From: DATKZS01 sp035527835 [NCBI: bacterium]
GTDB taxonomy: Bacteria > RBG-13-61-14
Assembly (NCBI GenBank): GCA_035527835.1
Contig: DATKZS010000216.1
Span: 1 to 25,766 of the forward strand
DNA length: 25,766 bases
Direction of reading: 5' to 3'
The notes beneath the pieces were generated by a model. The model searched no databases. It saw only the letters and a list, made by a program, of their open reading frames with translations, and had not been told where the DNA came from. Position numbers and translations under genes: made by a program. Positions 1,963-25,766 of this stretch are shown here, piece after piece. Position 1 is the first letter of the stretch. The number at the start of each line of letters is the position of its first letter.

Positions 1963-2030
1963 GCGCAAAGACGCAAAGAACGCAAAGATTATCAAGAAAA
2001 AATTCCTTTGCGTTCTTTGCGTCTTTGCGC
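1963..2030. repeat. Perfect 25-bp inverted repeat of CGCAAAG units
   Basis: The left arm (1963-1987) and right arm (2006-2030) are exact reverse complements over 25 bp, with an 18-nt loop between them. Each arm is three copies of a CGCAAAG unit whose starts are 8 and 9 nt apart. It lies between two convergent genes (ending at 1933 and 2220). It could fold into a long hairpin in either transcript and act as a bidirectional terminator or RNA end protector, but no U-tract follows immediately. Confidence 0.95.
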
Positions 2031-2045
2031 TGCTCAGAAAATATT

Positions 2046-2130
2046 TTTTTGACAGGATTAACAGGATTAACAGGATGAAAGAAAATAAGCATCTACTCGC
2101 TCCGGAACATCCTGTTAATCCTGTCAAAAA
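2046..2130. repeat. Inverted repeat of ACAGGATTA units
   Basis: The left arm at 2046-2067 pairs exactly with the right arm at 2109-2130 (22 bp, including T5/A5 ends). The left side holds three ACAGGAT units 9 nt apart (2051-2076), and the right side holds two. The sequence is unrelated to the CGCAAAG repeat 16 bases earlier, but the design is the same: short tandem units in inverted arms. It lies in the same convergent gap. Confidence 0.93.
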
Positions 2131-2219
2131 TCTTTTCATTATTTCAGGGCGCCGCCTCGCGGCATGAGGAGCTGCCAAAAAAATTTCAATAGCGTCATCC
2201 GGGACAAACCGGACGGCCG

Positions 2220-2528
2220 CTAGGAGGCCCGGGAGAGGGGCACGAGGTACCCGGAGCGGTCGCTGGCCTCGACGGTGAGGGGGAAGAGGGTGGAGGGGAT
2301 GAGGCCGCGGAGCTCGCGCTCGAGCCGGATGAGGCGGAGGATGCAGCGGACGAGCGCGATCTTGTCGCACTTGGGCAGGCGGGACACGGATACGCTCAGG
2401 ATGTCCAGGTCAAAGGGGACGAGGCCGTAGCGGCGGCACAGGACCAGGTAGCGGTCCTTGGTGCGCTTGTACTCCTCCAACATGCGGCCGGAGACCTCAT
2501 GATTTTCTTTGCGTTGCCGTTTTTTCAT
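2220..2528 (-). CDS. Small protein of unknown function, paralog of the product of 3081-3413
   Basis: The 102-residue protein is basic and predicted helical, with no signal peptide or membrane segment. I do not recognise the family. The ATG at 2528 is chosen over an upstream GTG at 2540 because GAGGTGG lies at the right distance before it. Residues 20-70 align without a gap to residues 29-79 of the product of 3081-3413, with 19 of 51 positions identical. The shared pattern is Y-x3-KD-x-YL-x-LC-x2-Y-x-L-x-P-x-DL, followed by D-x-I-x-L-x-R and an L-x3-E. The C-terminal tails differ. A sigma-54-like promoter lies at 2622-2638 in the correct orientation, predicting a leader of about 84 nt. The second half of the shared region could be a DNA- or protein-binding helical pair, but that is a guess. 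Confidence 0.75.
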   Translation of the reverse strand: MKKRQRKENHEVSGRMLEEYKRTKDRYLVLCRRYGLVPFDLDILSVSVSRLPKCDKIALVRCILRLIRLERELRGLIPSTLFPLTVEASDRSGYLVPLSRAS

Positions 2529-2621
2529 GGTCCACCTCACTTTGCCGCTTACTTGGCCCGCTTGGCCAGCTTACCTCCTTCATTTATTATCCCGGACCTT
2601 GCCGATTCCGCCATAATAATA

Positions 2622-2638
2622 AGCAACCATTGTGCCAA
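2622..2638 (-). promoter_or_regulatory. Sigma-54 (RpoN) -24/-12 promoter candidate for the 2220-2528 gene
   Basis: On the minus strand the sequence reads TTGGCACAATGGTTGCT. It has the invariant GG and GC with ten bases between them. It matches the YTGGCACG-N4-TTGCW consensus at every defined base except the G after GGCAC. The predicted transcription start is near 2612, about 84 nt before the ATG at 2528. Confidence 0.65.
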
Positions 2639-2820
2639 AGCCCGCAAATATCTTCGATTAGTGTTATATTTCAATATGTTGGAAACCGGCGCTGTATTTG
2701 AATTCATATTCAGAAGGCCGGATTGCAGTAATAATTACACGTTTTGGCGCACAGACTGAAATATGTCAATAACGGATTAAGGAAACCTTTCTTACGCGGA
2801 TGCCTCTAACTTGAAGGACA

Positions 2821-2836
2821 CAATTGCATGCAACTG
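2821..2836. promoter_or_regulatory. Palindrome midway between the two sigma-54-like promoters
   Basis: CAATTGCATGCAACTG is a 16-bp palindrome with one mismatched pair and a perfect 10-bp core (TTGCATGCAA). It lies about 190-200 bp upstream of both -24/-12 sites, a typical distance for the upstream site of a sigma-54 enhancer-binding activator. The assignment as an activator site is inference from symmetry and position only. Confidence 0.35.
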
Positions 2837-3030
2837 ACTAGAAAATTGAATAATTTTTCGAGGCAGGACTTTGCGTGGATCAATTGAGCCCATCATCTAA
2901 TCATACGGTTTTTACAATGATTGTTGACGGCGTTACATTTTTTCCGCATTCTCCGGGCCGGCAATCAGGGGAGAAAATAATGAGTTTAGTTTTTTCAACA
3001 GGTTATGAGCCGATTGGGAATCGTTAAGAA

Positions 3031-3047
3031 CTGGCATTTAGTTTGCA
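3031..3047 (+). promoter_or_regulatory. Sigma-54 (RpoN) -24/-12 promoter candidate for the 3081-3413 gene
   Basis: CTGGCATTTAGTTTGCA carries GG and GC ten bases apart and matches the YTGGCA and TTGCW parts of the consensus, missing only the C and G after GGCA. Transcription would start near 3058, leaving a 23-nt leader that still contains the GGAG ribosome binding site at 3071-3074. Confidence 0.6.
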
Positions 3048-3080
3048 TGAATAAATTTTGCTACGTCAACGGAGTGTAAT

Positions 3081-3413
3081 ATGAACACAAGGGGGTTTGA
3101 AATGTTGGAGCCGACACTGCCATTGAGCCAGGGGTCAGCGGCCAGAGATCGCCTTCGCGAGCATTATTCCTATAAAAAGGACGAGTATCTCGAGTTGTGC
3201 TGGCAATATAATCTTCCGCCCAAGGATTTGAGCCTTTTGTTGATGGGCAAGCGATCCATCGCCTCGGGGGACCGGATCCGATTGATCCGGCTGGTGATCC
3301 TGTTGATGGACATGGAGAAGCTGCTCGACCGCCGTGACATCGAGGACTACCTTTTCGCGGAGAACGAGGCCCATTATTCGAACAGCGGGATTTTCCGGCA
3401 CGAGCTGCATTGA
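3081..3413 (+). CDS. Small protein of unknown function, paralog of the product of 2220-2528
   Basis: The 110-residue soluble protein belongs to no family I recognise. The ATG at 3081 follows GGAG with six bases between, and a second ATG at 3102 is a weaker choice. Residues 29-79 match residues 20-70 of the divergent neighbour: Y-x3-KD-x-YL-x-LC-x2-Y-x-L-x-P-x-DL near residues 29-50, then D64-x-I-x-L-x-R and a hydrophobic helix ending in Glu79. The segment around GKRSIASGDRIRLIRL has the rhythm of a helix-turn-helix C-terminal half as in Xre-like proteins, but I cannot confirm it. The acidic tail (residues 83-100) is not shared with the paralog. The nearby sigma-54-like promoter suggests expression on a specific signal rather than constitutively. 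Confidence 0.78.
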   Translation: MNTRGFEMLEPTLPLSQGSAARDRLREHYSYKKDEYLELCWQYNLPPKDLSLLLMGKRSIASGDRIRLIRLVILLMDMEKLLDRRDIEDYLFAENEAHYSNSGIFRHELH

Positions 3414-3451
3414 TCCCGGGCCGTGAGTTCGTAAGGATTTTTTTTAAAAAA

Positions 3452-3581
3452 GCGCCAAGGCGCAAAGAACGCAAAGCAATAACCGGATTTTTGGTCAAGG
3501 GCCGGCTGGTGTTTTCAGCCGGAGAGGGTGACCAAGCCGGTTATTTTTTTCAGGCCCTTTGCGTTCTTGGCGTCTTGGCGC
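3452..3581. repeat. 130-bp nested palindromic element
   Basis: Four stems are nested inside one another. The outer arms 3452-3476 and 3557-3581 match at 23 of 25 positions and use the CGC(A/C)AAG unit three times, with unit starts 8 and 9 nt apart. Inside lie AATAACCGG/CCGGTTATT (3478-3486 with 3537-3545), TTGGTCA/TGACCAA (3491-3497 with 3529-3535) and CCGGCT/AGCCGG (3502-3507 with 3517-3522), the last closing a 9-nt loop. The whole element could fold as one long hairpin. It lies between the convergent genes ending at 3413 and 3886. Confidence 0.92.
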
Positions 3582-3634
3582 TTCATGAAAAGGCTTGATT
3601 TCAACATCCGGTTTCACACTTGTTTGATAGCCAT

Positions 3635-3854
3635 CAAGAAAAACGCCAAGACGCCAAGAGTGCCGAGGTTCGCCAAGTAAAACCGGATGTTTCTTGGCGG
3701 CAAGTCTCGGGAAAAGACGCATCGCCTTGACTCCAACCTGCTTGGCGAACCCGGTGACGGGAACGCCAAGAAAGATTAAACTGCCGGGAGGCCGGCTTGA
3801 GAATTTAATAAAAACATCGCCCTTGGCGTTCTTGGCGTCTTGGCGTTTTTCTTG
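3635..3854. repeat. 220-bp inverted-repeat element; second copy at the right window edge
   Basis: The arms 3635-3668 and 3821-3854 pair at about 31 of 34 positions and are built of CGCCAAG units. The interior holds further inverted pieces, for example TTCGCCAAG/CTTGGCGAA. A separate perfect 12-bp inverted pair links 3603-3614 with 3680-3691 across the left arm. The part from 3636 to about 3774 aligns along its whole length with 25626-25766. It has no coding capacity, so it looks like a non-autonomous dispersed element or a structured RNA. Confidence 0.88.
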
Positions 3855-3885
3855 TGCCTATATTTTGGACAGCACTGATCCGGTT

Positions 3886-6800
3886 TTATTTCTGGGTTCG
3901 GATGCGGATGCGGTCGGCGGCTTCCTTGGCGGTTTTGGCCTGGGGCGTTTCCAGCTTGGCGATCTCGTCGAGGAGTTCCAAAGATTTTTCGGAGCCGATT
4001 TTGCCGAGGGCCTCGATGGCGGCTTCGAGGACCACGGGCTCTTCCTTGCCCTGCTCGATGGTGTGCTCGATGGCCTTCTTGAAACGCTTGAAGAGACCGC
4101 CTTTGAGGGCGGCGCGGTCGCTGGCCATTTGCAGGATCGTTTCCTCGACCGTTCCCTGGTTGGGCAGTTCCGCCATGCCTCCGAGCGCCCTGATGAGCTG
4201 GGCAATCCAGCGGTCGTGCTCGACGGCCTGCTCCTTGTCCCCGGGCCTTTCCTTTTTGATCAGCTCCAGGATTTTGTTGACGGACGATTCGGAGGGCGGC
4301 TGAAAGAGGCTGAGGCACCCGAGGGCGCGGCGCTGCACCCTTTTGTCGGTGTCGTGGAGGGCGGAGATGACGAGGGGCTCGGCGTTCCTTCCCTCGAGCT
4401 TGAGGGAGGTGTTGAGGGCCTCCTCGCGCAGCCGGGGCTGGGAGTGCTTGAGGAGGCGGCGGGAGCGTGCGATGTCCTCGTCGCCCTGTCCGATGTGGCC
4501 GATGATGAGCAGGGAGTTGCGCTGGAGGAACCACTGCTGGCGGGGGTCGTCGAGGATTTGGCGGACGCGGCGGCGGGAGAGGTCTCCCTGCTTGATGAGG
4601 GCGTCCACCACGGCCTTGCGCACTCCGCGGTCCTGGCTCTGGGCGAGGACCTTGATCAAGACCTCGACCCCGAGCGGCCCCATGCGGGGGATGACCTCGT
4701 CCATCAGCGCCCGCTCGGCCTTTTCCGCCTTCTCGTACGCCTCCACCAGTTGGTCGGTGTATTCATGGAAGATGAAGATGAGGGGGTTGGCGGGCAGGCC
4801 GGCGCCGCCTCTGAAGACCTTGGCCTCGGCGGCGGCCTTGTCCACGCCCTTGGCGAGCTCGAGGATCACGGCCCATTTTTTCCGCTCGATCAGGATGGGG
4901 GCGACGCGGTGGAAGCTTTTGAGCAACGCCATGGCGTCCTCTTCGACGGTGGCGTGGAGGAGGCCGGCGATATAATTCTCCAGGTCCTTTTCCAGGTCAT
5001 CGGCGAGGCGCAGGGTGTTGATGCGGTACTGGACCTCCGGGGGCAGCTCCTCGAAGGCCAGGATCTCGTTGAAGTATAGCTGCTCCAGGAAATTCTTGGC
5101 GCCCTGCACGTCTTCGAGGACGACGCGCTGGGCGATCCATTTCATGATGCGTTTCACGCCCTGGAAGCGCCGGTTCAGGATCTCGTTGTCCGCGTGCTCT
5201 TCCCTTTCGGAGCGCAGTCTTGCCAGTTCATCGAAGATGAAGCGGGAGGTGGGCAGGAGCATCTGCATGGGGAAGCAGGCGATGATGGTCTGTTCCAGGT
5301 CCTCGGCCTCGATGTCTTCCACGTGCTTGGCGATGACGTAGCAGTTGAGCACGATGTCCTTCAGCAGGAAGGGGTGGCGCAGCGGCCGGATGATGTCCTG
5401 GATGATCTGGACCTTGAGCTTCTTCATCTCCTCGTGTGACTTGCCCTTGAACATGGGCAGGACCTTCAGGTCCTTGGCCAGCCGGTTGATGGCCATCTCG
5501 GCGCGCCAGGGCAGCTTTTCCTCGACCAGGATCATGTCGTCCATGAACACGCTGGAAATCTCGGAGATGCCGGCGGAGATCAGGGCCTTGGTCAGGAGAT
5601 CGCCGACCTTGGCGCCCTCGCCGCGGTCCGCCTTGGGATCGCTCATGATGTCCACGAAGGCGTCGAAGTGCTCGGGCGTGATTCCCTTTTTAATGGCGAA
5701 GGAGACGAGGCCCTTGCGGTTGTAATAATCGCGGAAGCGGGGCACGAAGAGCTCGGCCATGCCGGCGCCCACCACGGTGCGAACGCTCACCGGCTCGTCG
5801 AGGATGCCGGTGATGAGGACGTCGGTTCGCTCGCGGGTCTCCTGGTTGGTGAGCATGAACTCCTTGTCGTCCCCCAGGGCCTTTTCCAGCTGCTCGAAGA
5901 GCCCCTGCTTGGCGTCCTTGGCGCCGGGATGGTCGGGAGCGTAATAGCCGCTCCGGAGCATGGCCTTGGCCAGGTCCATGATGAAGTCGCCGACGGGCTT
6001 GACCCGCTCGCGCTCCTCCGCGGTCAGCTCCTTTTTCTCGGCCGGAGGCGGCGGGGGCGGCGTTACAACTTCGTCTTCGTATTTCATCTCGGCCTGGGCG
6101 ATGACCTCTTTGACCCAGGCGAGCTTCTTACTGAACGACGACGGCGCGGCCGGCTCCGGCTTCCCGGCGCGCGGCTTGGGCTCGGGCGCCGGCGGGGGCG
6201 GAGTGGGGGCCGGCCTTGGCGGCTCCGGGGCCGGCGGATGGGCCGGCGAGCGGGCCGGCGGCTTAGGCTCGGGCGCCGGAGGCGGGGCAACGGCTTGGGG
6301 CTTGGGCGGCCGGATGTATTCGCGCACGTGCTCGCGGGGCTTATGCTCGGTCTTATCCTGATCGAGGGAGATTTTTATTTTGGGGGCGGGTGGCGGAGTT
6401 GGTTCCGGCGGCGATTGCGCCCCTGGGGGCAGGGGCGCCCCTTGTGTTTGCGGGGCCTGCTCTTGAGGCGGGCCGTGCGGGGGCAAGGGTCCCGCGGTCA
6501 CTTCGAGAGCGGGCCCGGTCTCGGCCCCTGGTTTGGGCGGCTCCGGCTCCGGCGGCGCGGGCTCGGCGATGGGCGCCAGCTTGTCGCGGTAGGCATTGCT
6601 CGCGCGGAGCGCGGATTCCAGATTGGAGAGGACGGGGGCGGCATCGGCGGGAAAGGCGACCAGTATGCCCGAGGTTTTCCCGGTTCCTTCGGAACGGTCA
6701 TCGGAGATCACGGCTCCGTCCAGGATGAACTCGTCCTCGATTCCCGGGACCACGATCTCGACGGTCAGCTCGGTCCCGGCCGGCGAGGGGTTCTTGGAGG

Positions 6801-6891
6801 GAACGAACACCTTGGAATCGCGGAGAAGGGCCCAGTCCTTGAGAAACCGGTCCGGCGATGGGTATTTGAGCCTGATTAACTTTCTGGCCAA
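3886..6891 (-). CDS. Large PilZ-like/HEAT-repeat protein with a proline-rich linker
   Basis: The 1001-residue protein appears cytoplasmic, as it has no signal peptide or membrane segment. Residues 1-95 resemble PilZ-type domains of the kind common in Myxococcus-like bacteria, with the pattern LKYPSPDRFLKDW...AGTELTVEIVVPG...GILVAF. The RxxxR and DxSxxG c-di-GMP-binding motifs are not evident, so nucleotide binding is doubtful. Residues 108-240 are extremely rich in Pro, Glu and Ala and should be an extended linker. Residues about 290-440 hold a helical region with YYAPDHPGAKDA, like the Y-P-x-x-H-P segment seen in some bacterial HEAT and HD-type signalling proteins. From about residue 600 to the end come HEAT-like helical repeats. 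The start is TTG at 6891, preceded by AGGGG at good spacing, and no ATG lies near. The gene stands alone. A scaffold role in motility or envelope signalling is inference. Confidence 0.8.
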   Translation of the reverse strand: MARKLIRLKYPSPDRFLKDWALLRDSKVFVPSKNPSPAGTELTVEIVVPGIEDEFILDGAVISDDRSEGTGKTSGILVAFPADAAPVLSNLESALRASNAYRDKLAPIAEPAPPEPEPPKPGAETGPALEVTAGPLPPHGPPQEQAPQTQGAPLPPGAQSPPEPTPPPAPKIKISLDQDKTEHKPREHVREYIRPPKPQAVAPPPAPEPKPPARSPAHPPAPEPPRPAPTPPPPAPEPKPRAGKPEPAAPSSFSKKLAWVKEVIAQAEMKYEDEVVTPPPPPPAEKKELTAEERERVKPVGDFIMDLAKAMLRSGYYAPDHPGAKDAKQGLFEQLEKALGDDKEFMLTNQETRERTDVLITGILDEPVSVRTVVGAGMAELFVPRFRDYYNRKGLVSFAIKKGITPEHFDAFVDIMSDPKADRGEGAKVGDLLTKALISAGISEISSVFMDDMILVEEKLPWRAEMAINRLAKDLKVLPMFKGKSHEEMKKLKVQIIQDIIRPLRHPFLLKDIVLNCYVIAKHVEDIEAEDLEQTIIACFPMQMLLPTSRFIFDELARLRSEREEHADNEILNRRFQGVKRIMKWIAQRVVLEDVQGAKNFLEQLYFNEILAFEELPPEVQYRINTLRLADDLEKDLENYIAGLLHATVEEDAMALLKSFHRVAPILIERKKWAVILELAKGVDKAAAEAKVFRGGAGLPANPLIFIFHEYTDQLVEAYEKAEKAERALMDEVIPRMGPLGVEVLIKVLAQSQDRGVRKAVVDALIKQGDLSRRRVRQILDDPRQQWFLQRNSLLIIGHIGQGDEDIARSRRLLKHSQPRLREEALNTSLKLEGRNAEPLVISALHDTDKRVQRRALGCLSLFQPPSESSVNKILELIKKERPGDKEQAVEHDRWIAQLIRALGGMAELPNQGTVEETILQMASDRAALKGGLFKRFKKAIEHTIEQGKEEPVVLEAAIEALGKIGSEKSLELLDEIAKLETPQAKTAKEAADRIRIRTQK

Positions 6892-14117: not shown

Positions 14118-16037
14118 TCAATCCGTCAGCGGGATGATTTCCAGAAGCGATATTTTGACGCGGGCGGGGAAGGCCGCGGGGTCCAACCTGAGCTCCTGGA
14201 TCACCCCGGTCTCCAGCCAGGCCAGGTTATTTTGGACTTGAAGCAGATATTCATGCTCCTTGCCGTCGGCTTGAATGGAGAAAATTATCTTGGCCGCTTC
14301 GCAGAAGCGCTGCGTTTTCTCGCCCCGCCAGTATAATTGGGCATAGCCGCTGGCCGGCCCGGAAGGGGCCGCGGGTTCGATGCTCATCCTGATCCGCAGG
14401 CGGCCGACCGCCCAGGCTTCGATCCTCATGCCCTGGCTCAGCAGGTATCCTTGCGGCAAGAGCGCGAACGTCCCATCCTGGCCCTCGGTCCCCGAGGCCG
14501 GCCTTAAGAGGTGCGGCCCATTCTCCGCTTCAATCTCGACCGGCCGGAGTTTTATTCCGGACTCAATGAGCTCTTGACGCCGGCGCCGCCATTCTTTGAC
14601 CTTTGCGGTCTGGTCCCTGAAGCTCCCGTTCAGATCATCCCAGGCCAGGACCAGGTCGAACTGGTCGAGGGACCGGCCGGGACCGGCATCGGCAATGTTG
14701 AGCCCGGTCAGTTCCAGGTCCATCCGGGGCGGCTTTCCCGGCCAGGAACCGGCATGGCGTGAAATGAAATAGTCCTTGAACCCGTTGCTCATCATCAGCA
14801 CGTCACCCTGCCGCGCCGGGACACTCCGCACCAGCGCTCGTGAGCCCGGATGGATCAGAGGGACCTTGAGCGCGAGCTCTTCCTCGATCAGCCGCGTTTT
14901 TTCCGTGGCCGCGAGCCAGGGCCCATAATGAGCAGGGGCCTCGAGAGCGAGCATTACAGCGGCCGCCGCGGCCAGGCCCGTGCTTGCCCATCGCCATAGG
15001 CCTTTCTCGGACACCGCGCAAGCCGCGGTTGCGGCCACGGCCGCCGTGGGAAAAAGCAGCATCCGGTCGTTCATGACCGCGGTGTCGTGAGGGAGGAGAT
15101 GCGCCACGGGAAGAATGGTAATCCAGGCCAGGGCGGCCGCCGCCAGAGTCCGCGCCCGCGTTCCCGGATTGATGGCCCCGGCCACGGCCAGGAGCGCCAG
15201 CGGCCAGCCGGCGGCAAAGCGCGTGACGAAGTTTTCCGGGACCGAGGCGATCCAGGTCGCGGCCAGGCCGCGCAGTCCCTGGTCCATGAACATCAGCCCG
15301 CCATGGGCCGAGTATCCGCCCAGACCGTGAAGCAGGATGATCCGCAGCAAGAGGTAAGCCACGGCCACGCCGGGAAGCGCCAGCAGCGGCTTAAGCCATT
15401 GACGCCGGCCCGCGCCGCGCGGCGAGGACCAATACAGAACCAGCGCCGCCGCCGGCACGGTGATGGCCATTTCCTTGCAAAGCAGGGCGAGGAGGAAAAG
15501 TCCGGCGGAGGCCGCATAACGCCTCCGGACAAAACACAACAGGCTAAGGAGACTGAAGCAGAGGCAGAGCAGGTCAAACCTGGCCGCGGTCCAGGCCACC
15601 GCGCCAACGCCCACCGGGTGCGCCGCCAAAATGGCCGCTCCCGCGCCGGACGCCGGACGCGTGAGCCCGGCCGCCTCCAGCAGCCGGAACAGGAGGATGA
15701 TATTCAGGCAGTGGATGAGAAGATTGGTCAGGTGGAATCCCCAGGCGTTGGCCCCGTAAAGCAGGCGGTCAAGCCTCCAGAAAATCGCCGGGACCGGACG
15801 GATGAACCGATTGCCCAGCAGCCCGAACTCCCCTAGCGCCCGGGAAAATGAATCGGAACAGCTCCAGAACTCGAAGTCATCGGCCAGGAACCCGACCCGC
15901 AGCGCGCGATAGTGCGCATACCAGCCCGCGGCGAGAGCGATGGCAAGGCAAAGAAACATTAACCGGTTCCGGCGCCCAATGCGGCCGCGGCCAGGATCGG
16001 AGGATGGGCCATCCTGCAAGTTTGCCGGGATCACCAC
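14118..16037 (-). CDS. Polytopic membrane protein, PMT/GT-C-like, with a soluble C-terminal domain
   Basis: The 639-residue protein has about ten membrane helices up to residue 375 and a soluble domain of about 260 residues. After the first helix comes FLADDFEFW, with Asp53-Asp54 in the position of the GT-C acidic motif. Next comes RPVPAIFWRLDRLLYG with GFHLTNLLIHCLNIILLF, a pattern seen in bacterial membrane mannosyltransferase-like proteins. It would use a polyprenyl-phosphate sugar outside the inner membrane; the acceptor is unknown. The C-terminal part looks mainly beta and may bind the acceptor. The start is a GTG at 16037 with poor ribosome binding site support; an ATG at residue 27 is a possible alternative. 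It is the third of four tightly spaced genes. Confidence 0.75.
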   Translation of the reverse strand: MVIPANLQDGPSSDPGRGRIGRRNRLMFLCLAIALAAGWYAHYRALRVGFLADDFEFWSCSDSFSRALGEFGLLGNRFIRPVPAIFWRLDRLLYGANAWGFHLTNLLIHCLNIILLFRLLEAAGLTRPASGAGAAILAAHPVGVGAVAWTAARFDLLCLCFSLLSLLCFVRRRYAASAGLFLLALLCKEMAITVPAAALVLYWSSPRGAGRRQWLKPLLALPGVAVAYLLLRIILLHGLGGYSAHGGLMFMDQGLRGLAATWIASVPENFVTRFAAGWPLALLAVAGAINPGTRARTLAAAALAWITILPVAHLLPHDTAVMNDRMLLFPTAAVAATAACAVSEKGLWRWASTGLAAAAAVMLALEAPAHYGPWLAATEKTRLIEEELALKVPLIHPGSRALVRSVPARQGDVLMMSNGFKDYFISRHAGSWPGKPPRMDLELTGLNIADAGPGRSLDQFDLVLAWDDLNGSFRDQTAKVKEWRRRRQELIESGIKLRPVEIEAENGPHLLRPASGTEGQDGTFALLPQGYLLSQGMRIEAWAVGRLRIRMSIEPAAPSGPASGYAQLYWRGEKTQRFCEAAKIIFSIQADGKEHEYLLQVQNNLAWLETGVIQELRLDPAAFPARVKISLLEIIPLTD

Positions 16038-20266: not shown

Positions 20267-20410
20267 TTTTAAGCGCAAAGGCGCAAAGAACGCCAAGAAT
20301 ATAAGATATAATTAATTCGCCTGTGGATCCAGTCAGTATGAACCAGGAGTACCTCTTAAACGCGAAACTCTAAATTTTTCTTTGCGTTCTTTGCGCCTTT
20401 GCGTTTAAAA
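20267..20410. repeat. Inverted repeat of CGCAAAG units with a long loop
   Basis: The arms 20267-20298 and 20379-20410 match at 30 of 32 positions. Unit starts are again 8 and 9 nt apart, as in the repeat at 1963-2030, but the loop is 80 nt and AT-rich. It lies just past the stop codon of the TPR gene. Confidence 0.93.
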
Positions 20411-21862: not shown

Positions 21863-24370
21863 ATGTCGCGGAATTTTTTCAACATCCGTCTGGTCAGGAA
21901 CCTCATCGTCTCGGTCCTCGCCCTGTTCGCGCTCGGCTTCAGCGCCTACAGCATCGTAGCGGGCCGGGCCTGGATCGGCCGTCCTTTCCCCGGGTTCGCG
22001 GTACAGCGCAACAACCTGGTGCCGGTGACGGCGATGCCGGGATGGGAAGGCTACAGGCTCGGCATCAAGTTCGGGGACGTGGTGACGGCGGCGGACCACG
22101 AACCCGTGACCTCCGGCGACGTCCTCAACGCCTACGCGGCTCGGCTCAAGCCCGGCACCCCCGTCACCTATACCGTGGACCGCCGCGGCGAGAAGCTCGA
22201 CATCATTGTGCCGGTGTCGGTCTTCACCCTGCGCGATTACCTCATCTTTTTCCTCGCGATCAACGCGATCGGCCTGGTCTTTTATTCCATGGGGCTCGTG
22301 GTGTTCTACCTGAAGCCGAGCTCGCCGGCGAGCTGGGCGTTTCTCTTCAACAGCGTGGTGGTGGGGATGACGCTGGTGGCGGTCCCGGAGTACTGCACGG
22401 TGCACCGGAACATCATCCCGTTGCTCGCGATGCCCTACATCGGCCCCTCGTTCGTGGTACTGGGCCTGTATTTCCCGGAGGTGAGCCGGGCCCGGAAATA
22501 CCTCTTGCCGCTCACCCTGGGCATCGCGGCGCCCATCACCGCGTTTTACGTGTACTACTTCGAGGACATCGCGCGGTTCCTGGTGGTTGACCGGATCTTT
22601 CTGGTCTTCATGGGCATCAACAACGCGCTGGGCTTTTACCTGATGGGCCGGTCGTTCTACCGGAGCACCGACCAGTTCATGCGGCAGAAGGCCAAGATGG
22701 TGATCTACGGCTTCAGCCTGACTTTTGCTCTGGCCACGCCCTTTGCCATCGGCACCCTGATCCTCAAGAACTTCATCTTCACCTGGTCGCTGTTTTTAGG
22801 GCTTTTGATGCTGCCGCTGTCCATCGCCTACGCCATCCTGGTCAGCAACCTCTTCGACGTGGACGTGTTGATCCGGCGCACGATCGGGTACGCGGTGGTG
22901 AGCATCATGGCGGTGCCGCTGCTGTTCGGGTTGATGGGCGTCAGCAGCTACTTCCTGCAGGGTTTGACCGGGGAATCTTCGCAGGTCGCCGCGGTGTTTT
23001 CGACGCTCCTGGTGGTGGCGGCGTTCCGGCCGCTCCACACCCGGGTCAACAACGAGATCAACCGCCGCTTTTACCGCGAGGGGTTCGAGTACCAACGCAC
23101 CATCCGCGAGGCGGGCAAGATGCTGGCCCGCATCATTGACCTGGACCAGCTGGTGAACCGGGCGCTGGACACGGTGATGGACGCGGTCAAGATCGAGGTC
23201 GGGGCCATTTTCATCATGGACCCGGAGCAGGGCCGTCTCAAGATCATGGCCACCCGCGTCCACCGGCCCGAGGCCGCGGCCGGCGCGGACGGCGGGGCCG
23301 CGGGGCCGCGACTCACCGGTGTACCGGCCGACCATCCGCTGGTCCGCCGCCTCGAAGCCACCGAACGGCCTATGCAGTTGAACGACATTCCGATGCTTCC
23401 CATCTTTAAAGAGGATCGTGAACAGATGCAGGACCTGATGCACTCCCTGGGGGCCGTGCTCGTCATCCCCATCATGTACGAGCTCAAGCTGATCGGGCTC
23501 CTGGCCCTTGGCCCCAAGCGCTCGGGCGCGTGGTACTCGTCGGAAGACATTGACCTGATCCACACCCTCATGATCCAGACGGCGGTTTCCATCGAGAACG
23601 CCCGCAAGGTGGGCGAGCTGAAAAAGATGGTGGCGCTGGAGGCCTCCTACCGCGAGCTCAAGGCCCTGGACGAGATGAAGGACAACTTCTTGTCCATGGT
23701 CTCGCACGACCTGCGCACGCCCATGACCGGGATCAAGGGCTACGCCTACATGCTCCGCGAATCACTCGCCGATCCCCAGCACCGGCAGTACCTCGACGTG
23801 ATCATCCAGCAGAGTGAGCGCCTCACCCGGCTCATCAACGACCTGCTCGACTTCCAGCGCTTCGAGGCCGGCAGGATGGAGCTCGAGTTCGAGGACCTCG
23901 ACCTCGCCGCCGTGGCCGGCGAGTCGTTCGACGCTTTTGTCGGCGCGACCTTCGAGAAAAAATTGGCCCTGGAAAAATTCATTCCCCCGCAACCCGTCAT
24001 GATCAAGGGCCACCGCGACCGCCTGCAGCAGGCCGTGGCCAATCTCTTGTCCAACGCCGTCAAGTTCACACCCCCCGACGGCCGCGTCACCTTGAGCGTG
24101 CGGGTGGCCGGCGGCCCCGGCCATCAGGAAGCCATGGTCTCGGTCATTGACACCGGGCCGGGCATCGCCCCGGAGATGCAGCCGCTCCTGTTCCAGCGCT
24201 TCTCCCAGGTCCATGAAGGCGCGCGGGAGAAGCAGCAGGGCAGCGGGCTCGGGCTGGCCCTGGTCCGACAGATCATCGAGCACCACGGCGGCAAGGTGGG
24301 GGTGACGAGCGAGGCCGGGCAGGGCAGCGACTTTTTCTTCACGCTCCCCCTCTCCGCCCCCGGCCAATAA
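21863..24370 (+). CDS. Membrane sensor histidine kinase: PDZ-like, multi-helix, GAF, HisKA, ATPase
   Basis: The 835-residue kinase has one membrane helix (about 11-33) and an outer PDZ-like domain (about 42-120, with FGDVVTAADHEPVTS). About nine more membrane helices follow (124-388). A cytoplasmic GAF-like domain (about 410-580) precedes the kinase core. His615 in FLSMVSHDLRTP is the phosphorylation site. The ATPase has its N-box (Asn727 and Asn731 in NLLSNAVKFTP), DTGPGIAPE and GSGLGLALV. The PDZ-helices-GAF order, with LFDVDVLIRRTIGYAV, is like ComP-type kinases. The ligand is unknown; the PDZ-like and membrane parts suggest an envelope or lipid signal. It has no receiver domain of its own, but the response regulator gene begins 19 bases on. 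AGGA lies close upstream of the ATG at 21863. Confidence 0.92.
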   Translation: MSRNFFNIRLVRNLIVSVLALFALGFSAYSIVAGRAWIGRPFPGFAVQRNNLVPVTAMPGWEGYRLGIKFGDVVTAADHEPVTSGDVLNAYAARLKPGTPVTYTVDRRGEKLDIIVPVSVFTLRDYLIFFLAINAIGLVFYSMGLVVFYLKPSSPASWAFLFNSVVVGMTLVAVPEYCTVHRNIIPLLAMPYIGPSFVVLGLYFPEVSRARKYLLPLTLGIAAPITAFYVYYFEDIARFLVVDRIFLVFMGINNALGFYLMGRSFYRSTDQFMRQKAKMVIYGFSLTFALATPFAIGTLILKNFIFTWSLFLGLLMLPLSIAYAILVSNLFDVDVLIRRTIGYAVVSIMAVPLLFGLMGVSSYFLQGLTGESSQVAAVFSTLLVVAAFRPLHTRVNNEINRRFYREGFEYQRTIREAGKMLARIIDLDQLVNRALDTVMDAVKIEVGAIFIMDPEQGRLKIMATRVHRPEAAAGADGGAAGPRLTGVPADHPLVRRLEATERPMQLNDIPMLPIFKEDREQMQDLMHSLGAVLVIPIMYELKLIGLLALGPKRSGAWYSSEDIDLIHTLMIQTAVSIENARKVGELKKMVALEASYRELKALDEMKDNFLSMVSHDLRTPMTGIKGYAYMLRESLADPQHRQYLDVIIQQSERLTRLINDLLDFQRFEAGRMELEFEDLDLAAVAGESFDAFVGATFEKKLALEKFIPPQPVMIKGHRDRLQQAVANLLSNAVKFTPPDGRVTLSVRVAGGPGHQEAMVSVIDTGPGIAPEMQPLLFQRFSQVHEGAREKQQGSGLGLALVRQIIEHHGGKVGVTSEAGQGSDFFFTLPLSAPGQ

Positions 24371-24389
24371 AAATTAAGGAGCAGTTGAG

Positions 24390-24761
24390 ATGGCGAAAAA
24401 GGTGTTGATCGCCGACGATGATGACATGGTCCGCAACCTGATCAAGCTGACCATCCGCGATGACGGCTATGAGGTCCACGAGGCCTGCGACGGCATCGAG
24501 GCCCTGGATATGGCCAGGGAGATCATGCCCGACCTGATCGTCATGGACGTGATGATGCCGGGAAAGGTCGGATACCAGGTGTGCCAGGAGCTCAAGGAAG
24601 ATCCTGACACCCGCCAAATCTTCGTCATGTTCCTGACCGCCCGCGGCGGCTCCCTCTCCAAGGAGACAGTAGAATTGAGCGGAGGCGATGCCTTCCTGTC
24701 CAAGCCCTTCACCCCCCGCGAGCTGCGCGAGCTCATCCAAAAGGCCCTCTCCCGGGCGTGA
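24390..24761 (+). CDS. Single-domain response regulator
   Basis: The 123-residue protein is a receiver domain and nothing more: the acidic cluster Asp9-Asp12 in IADDDD, phosphoacceptor Asp53 in LIVMDVMMPG, Thr83 in FLTARG and Lys105 in LSKPFTP. It lacks a DNA-binding or enzymatic output domain, so it must act by binding another protein, as CheY or Spo0F do. It starts 19 bases after the kinase stop, with AAGGAG upstream of the ATG, so the two are co-transcribed partners. The region between Thr83 and Lys105 is slightly long and polar. Confidence 0.95.
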   Translation: MAKKVLIADDDDMVRNLIKLTIRDDGYEVHEACDGIEALDMAREIMPDLIVMDVMMPGKVGYQVCQELKEDPDTRQIFVMFLTARGGSLSKETVELSGGDAFLSKPFTPRELRELIQKALSRA

Positions 24762-25625: not shown

Positions 25626-25766
25626 AAGAAAACCGCCAAGACGCCAACAGCGCCAAGGATCGCCAAGGAAATCAAGATGTTTCTTTGCGGCCCGGCAAAG
25701 AACAGCTCCGCAGCGTTGGCCCCAACCGGCTTGGCGAACCGGCCGACGGGAGCGCCAAGCAAGAAA
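25626..25766. repeat. Second, diverged copy of the 3635-3854 element, cut by the window edge
   Basis: This stretch follows 3636-3774 base for base with scattered substitutions and few gaps. Shared runs include CGCCAAGACGCCAA, GATGTTTCTT and GCTTGGCGAACC, and the block order is the same. It lies upstream of the TetR promoter. The right arm, if present, is outside the window. Confidence 0.85.

Follow-up and report, generated by a model that had tools for sequence, protein, structure and literature searches.

The window, by which we mean the whole stretch of 25,766 nucleotides analysed here, contains two small genes, referred to below as P1 and P2, which lie back to back and are divergently transcribed, with 552 bp (2529-3080) between them. 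The features of this module are as follows.

2220-2528, minus strand: P1 coding sequence, 102 amino acids from the ATG at 2528, product basic (pI 10.1); assigned from the open reading frame, paralogy, a homolog in another genome and composition
2622-2637, minus strand: P1 promoter of the -24/-12 (sigma-54) type, TGGCACAATGGTTGCT; assigned from an exact match to TGGCAY-N5-TTGCW and a shuffle test
2638-3031, no strand assigned: A+T-rich stretch of 394 bp between the promoters, by its position only a candidate place of shared activator (enhancer) sites
3032-3047, plus strand: P2 promoter of the -24/-12 (sigma-54) type, TGGCATTTAGTTTGCA; assigned from an exact match to TGGCAY-N5-TTGCW and a shuffle test
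3081-3413, plus strand: P2 coding sequence, 110 amino acids, product slightly acidic (pI 6.1); assigned from the open reading frame, paralogy and composition

The mechanically called open reading frame of P1 begins at GTG 2540, and its start is probably the ATG at 2528 instead. BLASTP aligned the two products with 28 of 80 residues identical and one gap position (E 3e-11), and their BLOSUM62 local score of 105 compares with at most 48 in 500 shuffles. The ungapped block from Y20 to E70 of P1 (numbered from the ATG) and Y29 to E79 of P2 holds 19 identities in 51 positions, as counted by eye on the translations. Judging from these alignments, a single small protein gene gave rise to P1 and P2, which have since diverged; the first-pass annotation had already claimed this paralogy from the same 19 of 51 positions, and the count, the BLASTP result and the shuffle test all bear it out. 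At third codon positions, the GC fraction is 0.91 in P1 and 0.75 in P2 (0.85-0.90 in three other genes of the window). The net charge is +9.6 for the basic P1 and -2.1 for P2, which is acidic, as is P3 (-4.1), a third family member described below.

Inverted repeats were also seen in the window. Inverted pairs of CTTKGCGTTCTTKGCGTCTTKGCG occur at 1964-2029, 3453-3580, 3644-3845, 20274-20403, and 25634-25657, and nine copies with up to three mismatches were counted against 0 expected; the first three of these pairs sit where genes converge, on both sides of the P1-P2 module. A second inverted repeat, TTTTTGACAGGATTAACAGGAT / ATCCTGTTAATCCTGTCAAAAA, has perfect arms of 22 nt and lies at 2046-2130. 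Among 171 loci, neither an exact copy of CTTKGCGTTCTTKGCGTCTTKGCG nor an exact match to the 27-nt form of the second repeat was found.

The whole window was scanned for exact matches to TGGCAY-N5-TTGCW, and no site was found beyond the two upstream of P1 and P2, each of which is correctly oriented for its gene. The single site with one mismatch (15346-15361) is located inside an open reading frame (14118-16037). In 20,000 dinucleotide shuffles of the intergenic region (2529-3080), the mean number of exact sites was 0.0024; 47 shuffles had at least one site and none had two, while 1 of 300 shuffles of the whole window had two or more. The first-pass annotation had placed correctly oriented -24/-12 sites upstream of both genes and had seen in them one protein family with both copies behind sigma-54-type promoters, and the exact matches and the shuffles agree with it on both points. 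The predicted leaders are ~83 nt (P1) and ~23 nt (P2). The GG and GC elements 10 nt apart (-24/-12) that are required of sigma-54 promoters are present at P1, P2, and P3, and the sigma-54 consensus is printed as tGGcacg ... tTGCt in one report (PMC4641369). We consider it very probable that P1 and P2 are under sigma-54 control.

The window seems to belong to a small phylum sampled here by three genomes (G001, G025, and G026), an assignment drawn from its proteins and not from a phylogeny. Its trehalase is 63 percent identical to that of L004, a locus of G001, which is a metagenome-assembled genome (MAG) named uncultured delta proteobacterium at NCBI, and the closest HEAT-repeat protein among the 24 genomes searched is also in G001 (37 percent). 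Full-length relatives of the window's PDZ-GAF-histidine kinase, which is followed by a single-domain response regulator (21863-24758 for the two), are present in G001 (47 percent) and G026 (50 percent).

The rpoN gene was present in all four genomes tested, namely the three of the nearest phylum and G007. Scanning the three phylum genomes for the exact -24/-12 pattern gave 6, 9, and 13 sites, an unsorted total of 28 of which some will be chance or intragenic, compared with 3 for the reversed-pattern control. Because a response regulator carrying a Sigma54_activat domain (L121) is encoded behind one of the exact sites of G026, enhancer-binding proteins exist in this phylum and, to judge from its genomes, sigma-54 is in use there. 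Exact sites are also followed shortly by genes for another response regulator (L115) and for a pilin-like product (L111). L115 and L117, which lie 5.4 kb apart on one contig of G026 (C99), have identical -24/-12 sites and the same start of the downstream response regulator; the second frame is shortened, and a duplication with a truncated copy is likely. In addition, an ECF-type sigma gene (Sigma70_r2) begins 32-69 nt after an exact site in G001 (L104), G025 (L116), and G026 (L119), which suggests a conserved cascade from sigma-54 to an ECF sigma factor in all three genomes.

A profile of P1 and P2 gave one match among the three phylum genomes, in G026 (E 8e-16), and this gene is the third family member.

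L092 1486-1761, minus strand (the strand of the neighbouring HicB-like gene): P3, 91 amino acids, found by profile match in G026

The BLOSUM62 scores of P3 were 132 with P1 and 112 with P2, compared with at most 46 and 58, respectively, in 500 shuffles. The residues common to all three proteins are Y29, Y36, L37, C40, Y43, L45, P47, D49, L50, L53, D64, R70, L75, E79, L82, R84, and F92 in the numbering of P2. P3, the one homolog found elsewhere, has its own exact -24/-12 site, TGGCATTGGTTTTGCT, which ends 36 nt before the ATG; shuffles of the 300 bp upstream gave a mean of 0.0002 exact sites. Two of the findings that the first-pass annotation had named as refuting its reading, homologs lacking the motif and an absent rpoN, were looked for and not observed in P3 and in the three phylum genomes, respectively. 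With E allowed up to 10, a profile of all three proteins found no second copy in G026 and no member in G001 or G025. Past the P3 stop, 53 nt away on the same strand, lies a gene for a HicB-like antitoxin (L092 1239-1433, minus strand; PF15919, 33.7 bits).

Wider searches gave no further accepted member, and, given the incompleteness of MAGs and a shallow profile, these negatives carry limited weight. Four weak places (best E 0.042) came out of the profile search of 24 genomes with a cut-off of E 1; L084, L086, and L087 were set aside at that point, and none of the four was accepted. In searches run without a positive control, no member turned up in the 395 genomes of the G007 phylum or in the 39 of the G013 phylum. 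Among 386 relatives of G026, G026 itself was matched together with four places at E 0.003-0.009, about four being expected by chance; three of these places have internal stops, and L154, the only one with an open frame, lacks a -24/-12 site even when two mismatches are allowed. Peptide-pattern scans matched nothing in the genome contigs or viral contigs, and two viral stretches that matched a hand-made DNA pattern have stops inside and were taken as chance. With tblastn, P2 had no match in plasmids and P1, among the matches listed for phages, had only those of E ~7 or more. A limited literature search, which does not prove absence from print, found no paper on the family.

Up to an E of 10, Pfam assigned no family to any of the three proteins, and PADLOC returned nothing for the family proteins. 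The matches obtained elsewhere were not credible, namely one to YidC for P2 in NCBIfam (11.5 bits against a cut-off of 891; P1 and P2 scanned), one in PHROGs (E 0.29), and three among PDB sequences (E 0.13-0.79). The family thus appears to be undescribed in the libraries searched. AlphaFold2 run on both window sequences predicted helices at 15-42, 51-54, and 62-81 (mean pLDDT 70, pTM 0.60), and on P1 alone helices at 4-34 and 54-77 (pLDDT 65). These low-depth models, built on one or two sequences, predict an alpha-helical hairpin for P1 and P2. Helical hairpins are common, and so are middling Z values among them. Foldseek gave no match of the P2 model to PDB or BFVD at E 0.001 or better; the nearest solved fold is that of the small, functionally uncharacterised helical protein HP1531 from Helicobacter pylori (PDB 1zke), with Z 7.8 over 71 residues, an rmsd of 2.9, a Foldseek E of 2.0, and 13 percent identity, and we claim no kinship between them.

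The first-pass annotation had stated that the enhancer-binding activator needed by sigma-54 is not encoded in the window, and indeed no Sigma54_activat domain or enhancer-binding activator was found among the 16 other window proteins scanned. Three imperfect palindromes (2692-2713, 2821-2836, and 2877-2890), which may be chance occurrences, lie in the stretch between the promoters. Motif comparison with shuffles found no significant activator motif common to the three upstream regions: the best match between P2 and P3 was 11 nt and was equalled in 14 of 60 shuffles, that between P1 and P3 in 34 of 60, and that between P1 and P2 is an overlap of the same DNA.

What the products do was approached through several readings. 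That they are small DNA-binding regulators of the helix-turn-helix (HTH) or antitoxin-like kind, acting on their own divergent promoters or on other genes, would fit their small size, the divergent arrangement, the basic P1, and the HicB-like antitoxin gene next to P3, and by eye the core LxxCxxYxLxPxDLxxLL resembles helix-turn-helix spacing and is loosely like that of the Xre/MbcA/ParS (DUF2384) antitoxins. P2 and P3 are acidic, however, Pfam finds no HTH family in any of the three proteins (E up to 10), and in the models the positions expected of HTH helices 1 and 2 are taken up by a long helix. The antitoxin candidate was rejected, as PF20432 was not matched at E up to 10, no profile matched P1-P3, and hhalign gave probabilities of 0.1 percent against one antitoxin and 0.5 percent against an alignment of five. 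The HTH weight-matrix scores of P1, P2, and P3 (-2.7, -3.4, and -1.7) are below the non-regulator mean of 1.6 (n = 90), although the matrix is weak: built from Escherichia coli K-12 regulators, it assigned no motif to 5 of 19 of them, its envR motif looks misplaced, and it recognised the HTH protein of L105 but not the TetR of the window. A canonical helix-turn-helix is not supported for P1-P3, which we take as a weak negative, and the DNA-binding reading is rather unlikely.

Another possibility is that the sigma-54 regulon includes a programme for the surface or type IV pili in which the family takes part, for example as cytoplasmic partners in c-di-GMP signalling. A gene with a PilZ-type domain adjoins the family gene both in the window, where the N-terminal 100 amino acids of the product of 3886-6891 match TIGR02266 (E 4e-5; 23.6 bits, with the cut-off at 68.7), and in G026 (L093 10493-11272; PilZ, 38.9 bits against a cut-off of 22.5), and the pilin-like gene after another exact site of G026 (L111) matches PF14245 (E 2e-5, below the cut-off). 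We hold this to be unlikely, for there are only two loci, PilZ genes may be common in these genomes, the two genes converge in the window but diverge in G026, and Pfam does not detect PilZ in the protein of the window.

We strongly doubt the suggestion of the first-pass annotation that P1 and P2 are paired subunits or antagonists, that is, an interacting basic and acidic pair such as obligate subunits or a toxin and its antidote. Their opposite net charges and their position as divergent neighbours with promoters of the same type are what such a pair might show, but interacting gene pairs are usually co-translated, which separate promoters do not resemble, and PADLOC gave nothing. Because G026 has a single copy, with no second member beside P3, the family needs no partner paralog, which speaks against an obligate P1-P2 complex.

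That the -24/-12 matches arose by chance and the genes use ordinary promoters is highly improbable, since two sites never occurred together in the 20,000 shuffles and a third exact site precedes the independent homolog P3, even though six sigma-70-like matches (9 of 12) were found in 2000-3900 against 1.8 expected. Because such matches lie upstream on the same strand of P2 (plus, 2911-2939) and of P1 (minus, 2927-2900 and 2674-2647), additional sigma-70 promoters may serve both genes.

The reading that we prefer, to which we give a probability of about 0.4, combines sigma-54 co-induction by an enhancer-binding protein with small partner-binding proteins of the adaptor or regulator type. RpoN-RNA polymerase would sit closed on both promoters until an enhancer-binding protein that uses ATP, with its gene at another place in the genome and its binding site probably within the 394 bp between them, fires the two together. 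The products would be small soluble cytoplasmic helical hairpins that bind a partner protein, as adaptors or anti-activators, in the sigma-54 response, and the second copy would have arisen by duplication, diverged in charge, and come to tune or extend the first. The protein-binding role taken by itself, which is suggested by the fold type alone, is a tentative proposal, short of an even chance. A bolder version, in which an undescribed regulator or adaptor family is confined to this little-known phylum-level lineage and always under sigma-54, the window pair being a matched switch on the sigma-54 response, seems to us quite improbable.

Divergent operons under one sigma-54 system have been described before. 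In Desulfovibrio vulgaris, the divergent orp operons and the type III secretion operons are co-regulated by sigma-54 and one activator, which reminds us of P1 and P2 in that there are two divergent units, each with a sigma-54-type promoter, and a common upstream region (PMC4641369). A title by Fievet (2011) is among the references of that paper. The activator of D. vulgaris is encoded in or beside the operons (PMC4641369), whereas none was found in the scanned neighbours of P1 and P2, whose products are small proteins unrelated to those of the D. vulgaris operons. The arrangement of P1 and P2 is ordinary because divergent sigma-54 operons are already known; it adds one more example to that kind, and what is new is the protein family.

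With such precedents for the arrangement, the surprise is moderate. P1 and P2 nevertheless make up a small testable module from a lineage known only by metagenomes, and a sigma-54 promoter close to the consensus precedes all three known family members. Provided that these promoters are functional, the P1 and P2 genes would serve as reporters of sigma-54 activity in these bacteria, and an unknown player would be added to a regulon that seems to drive ECF sigma genes as well.
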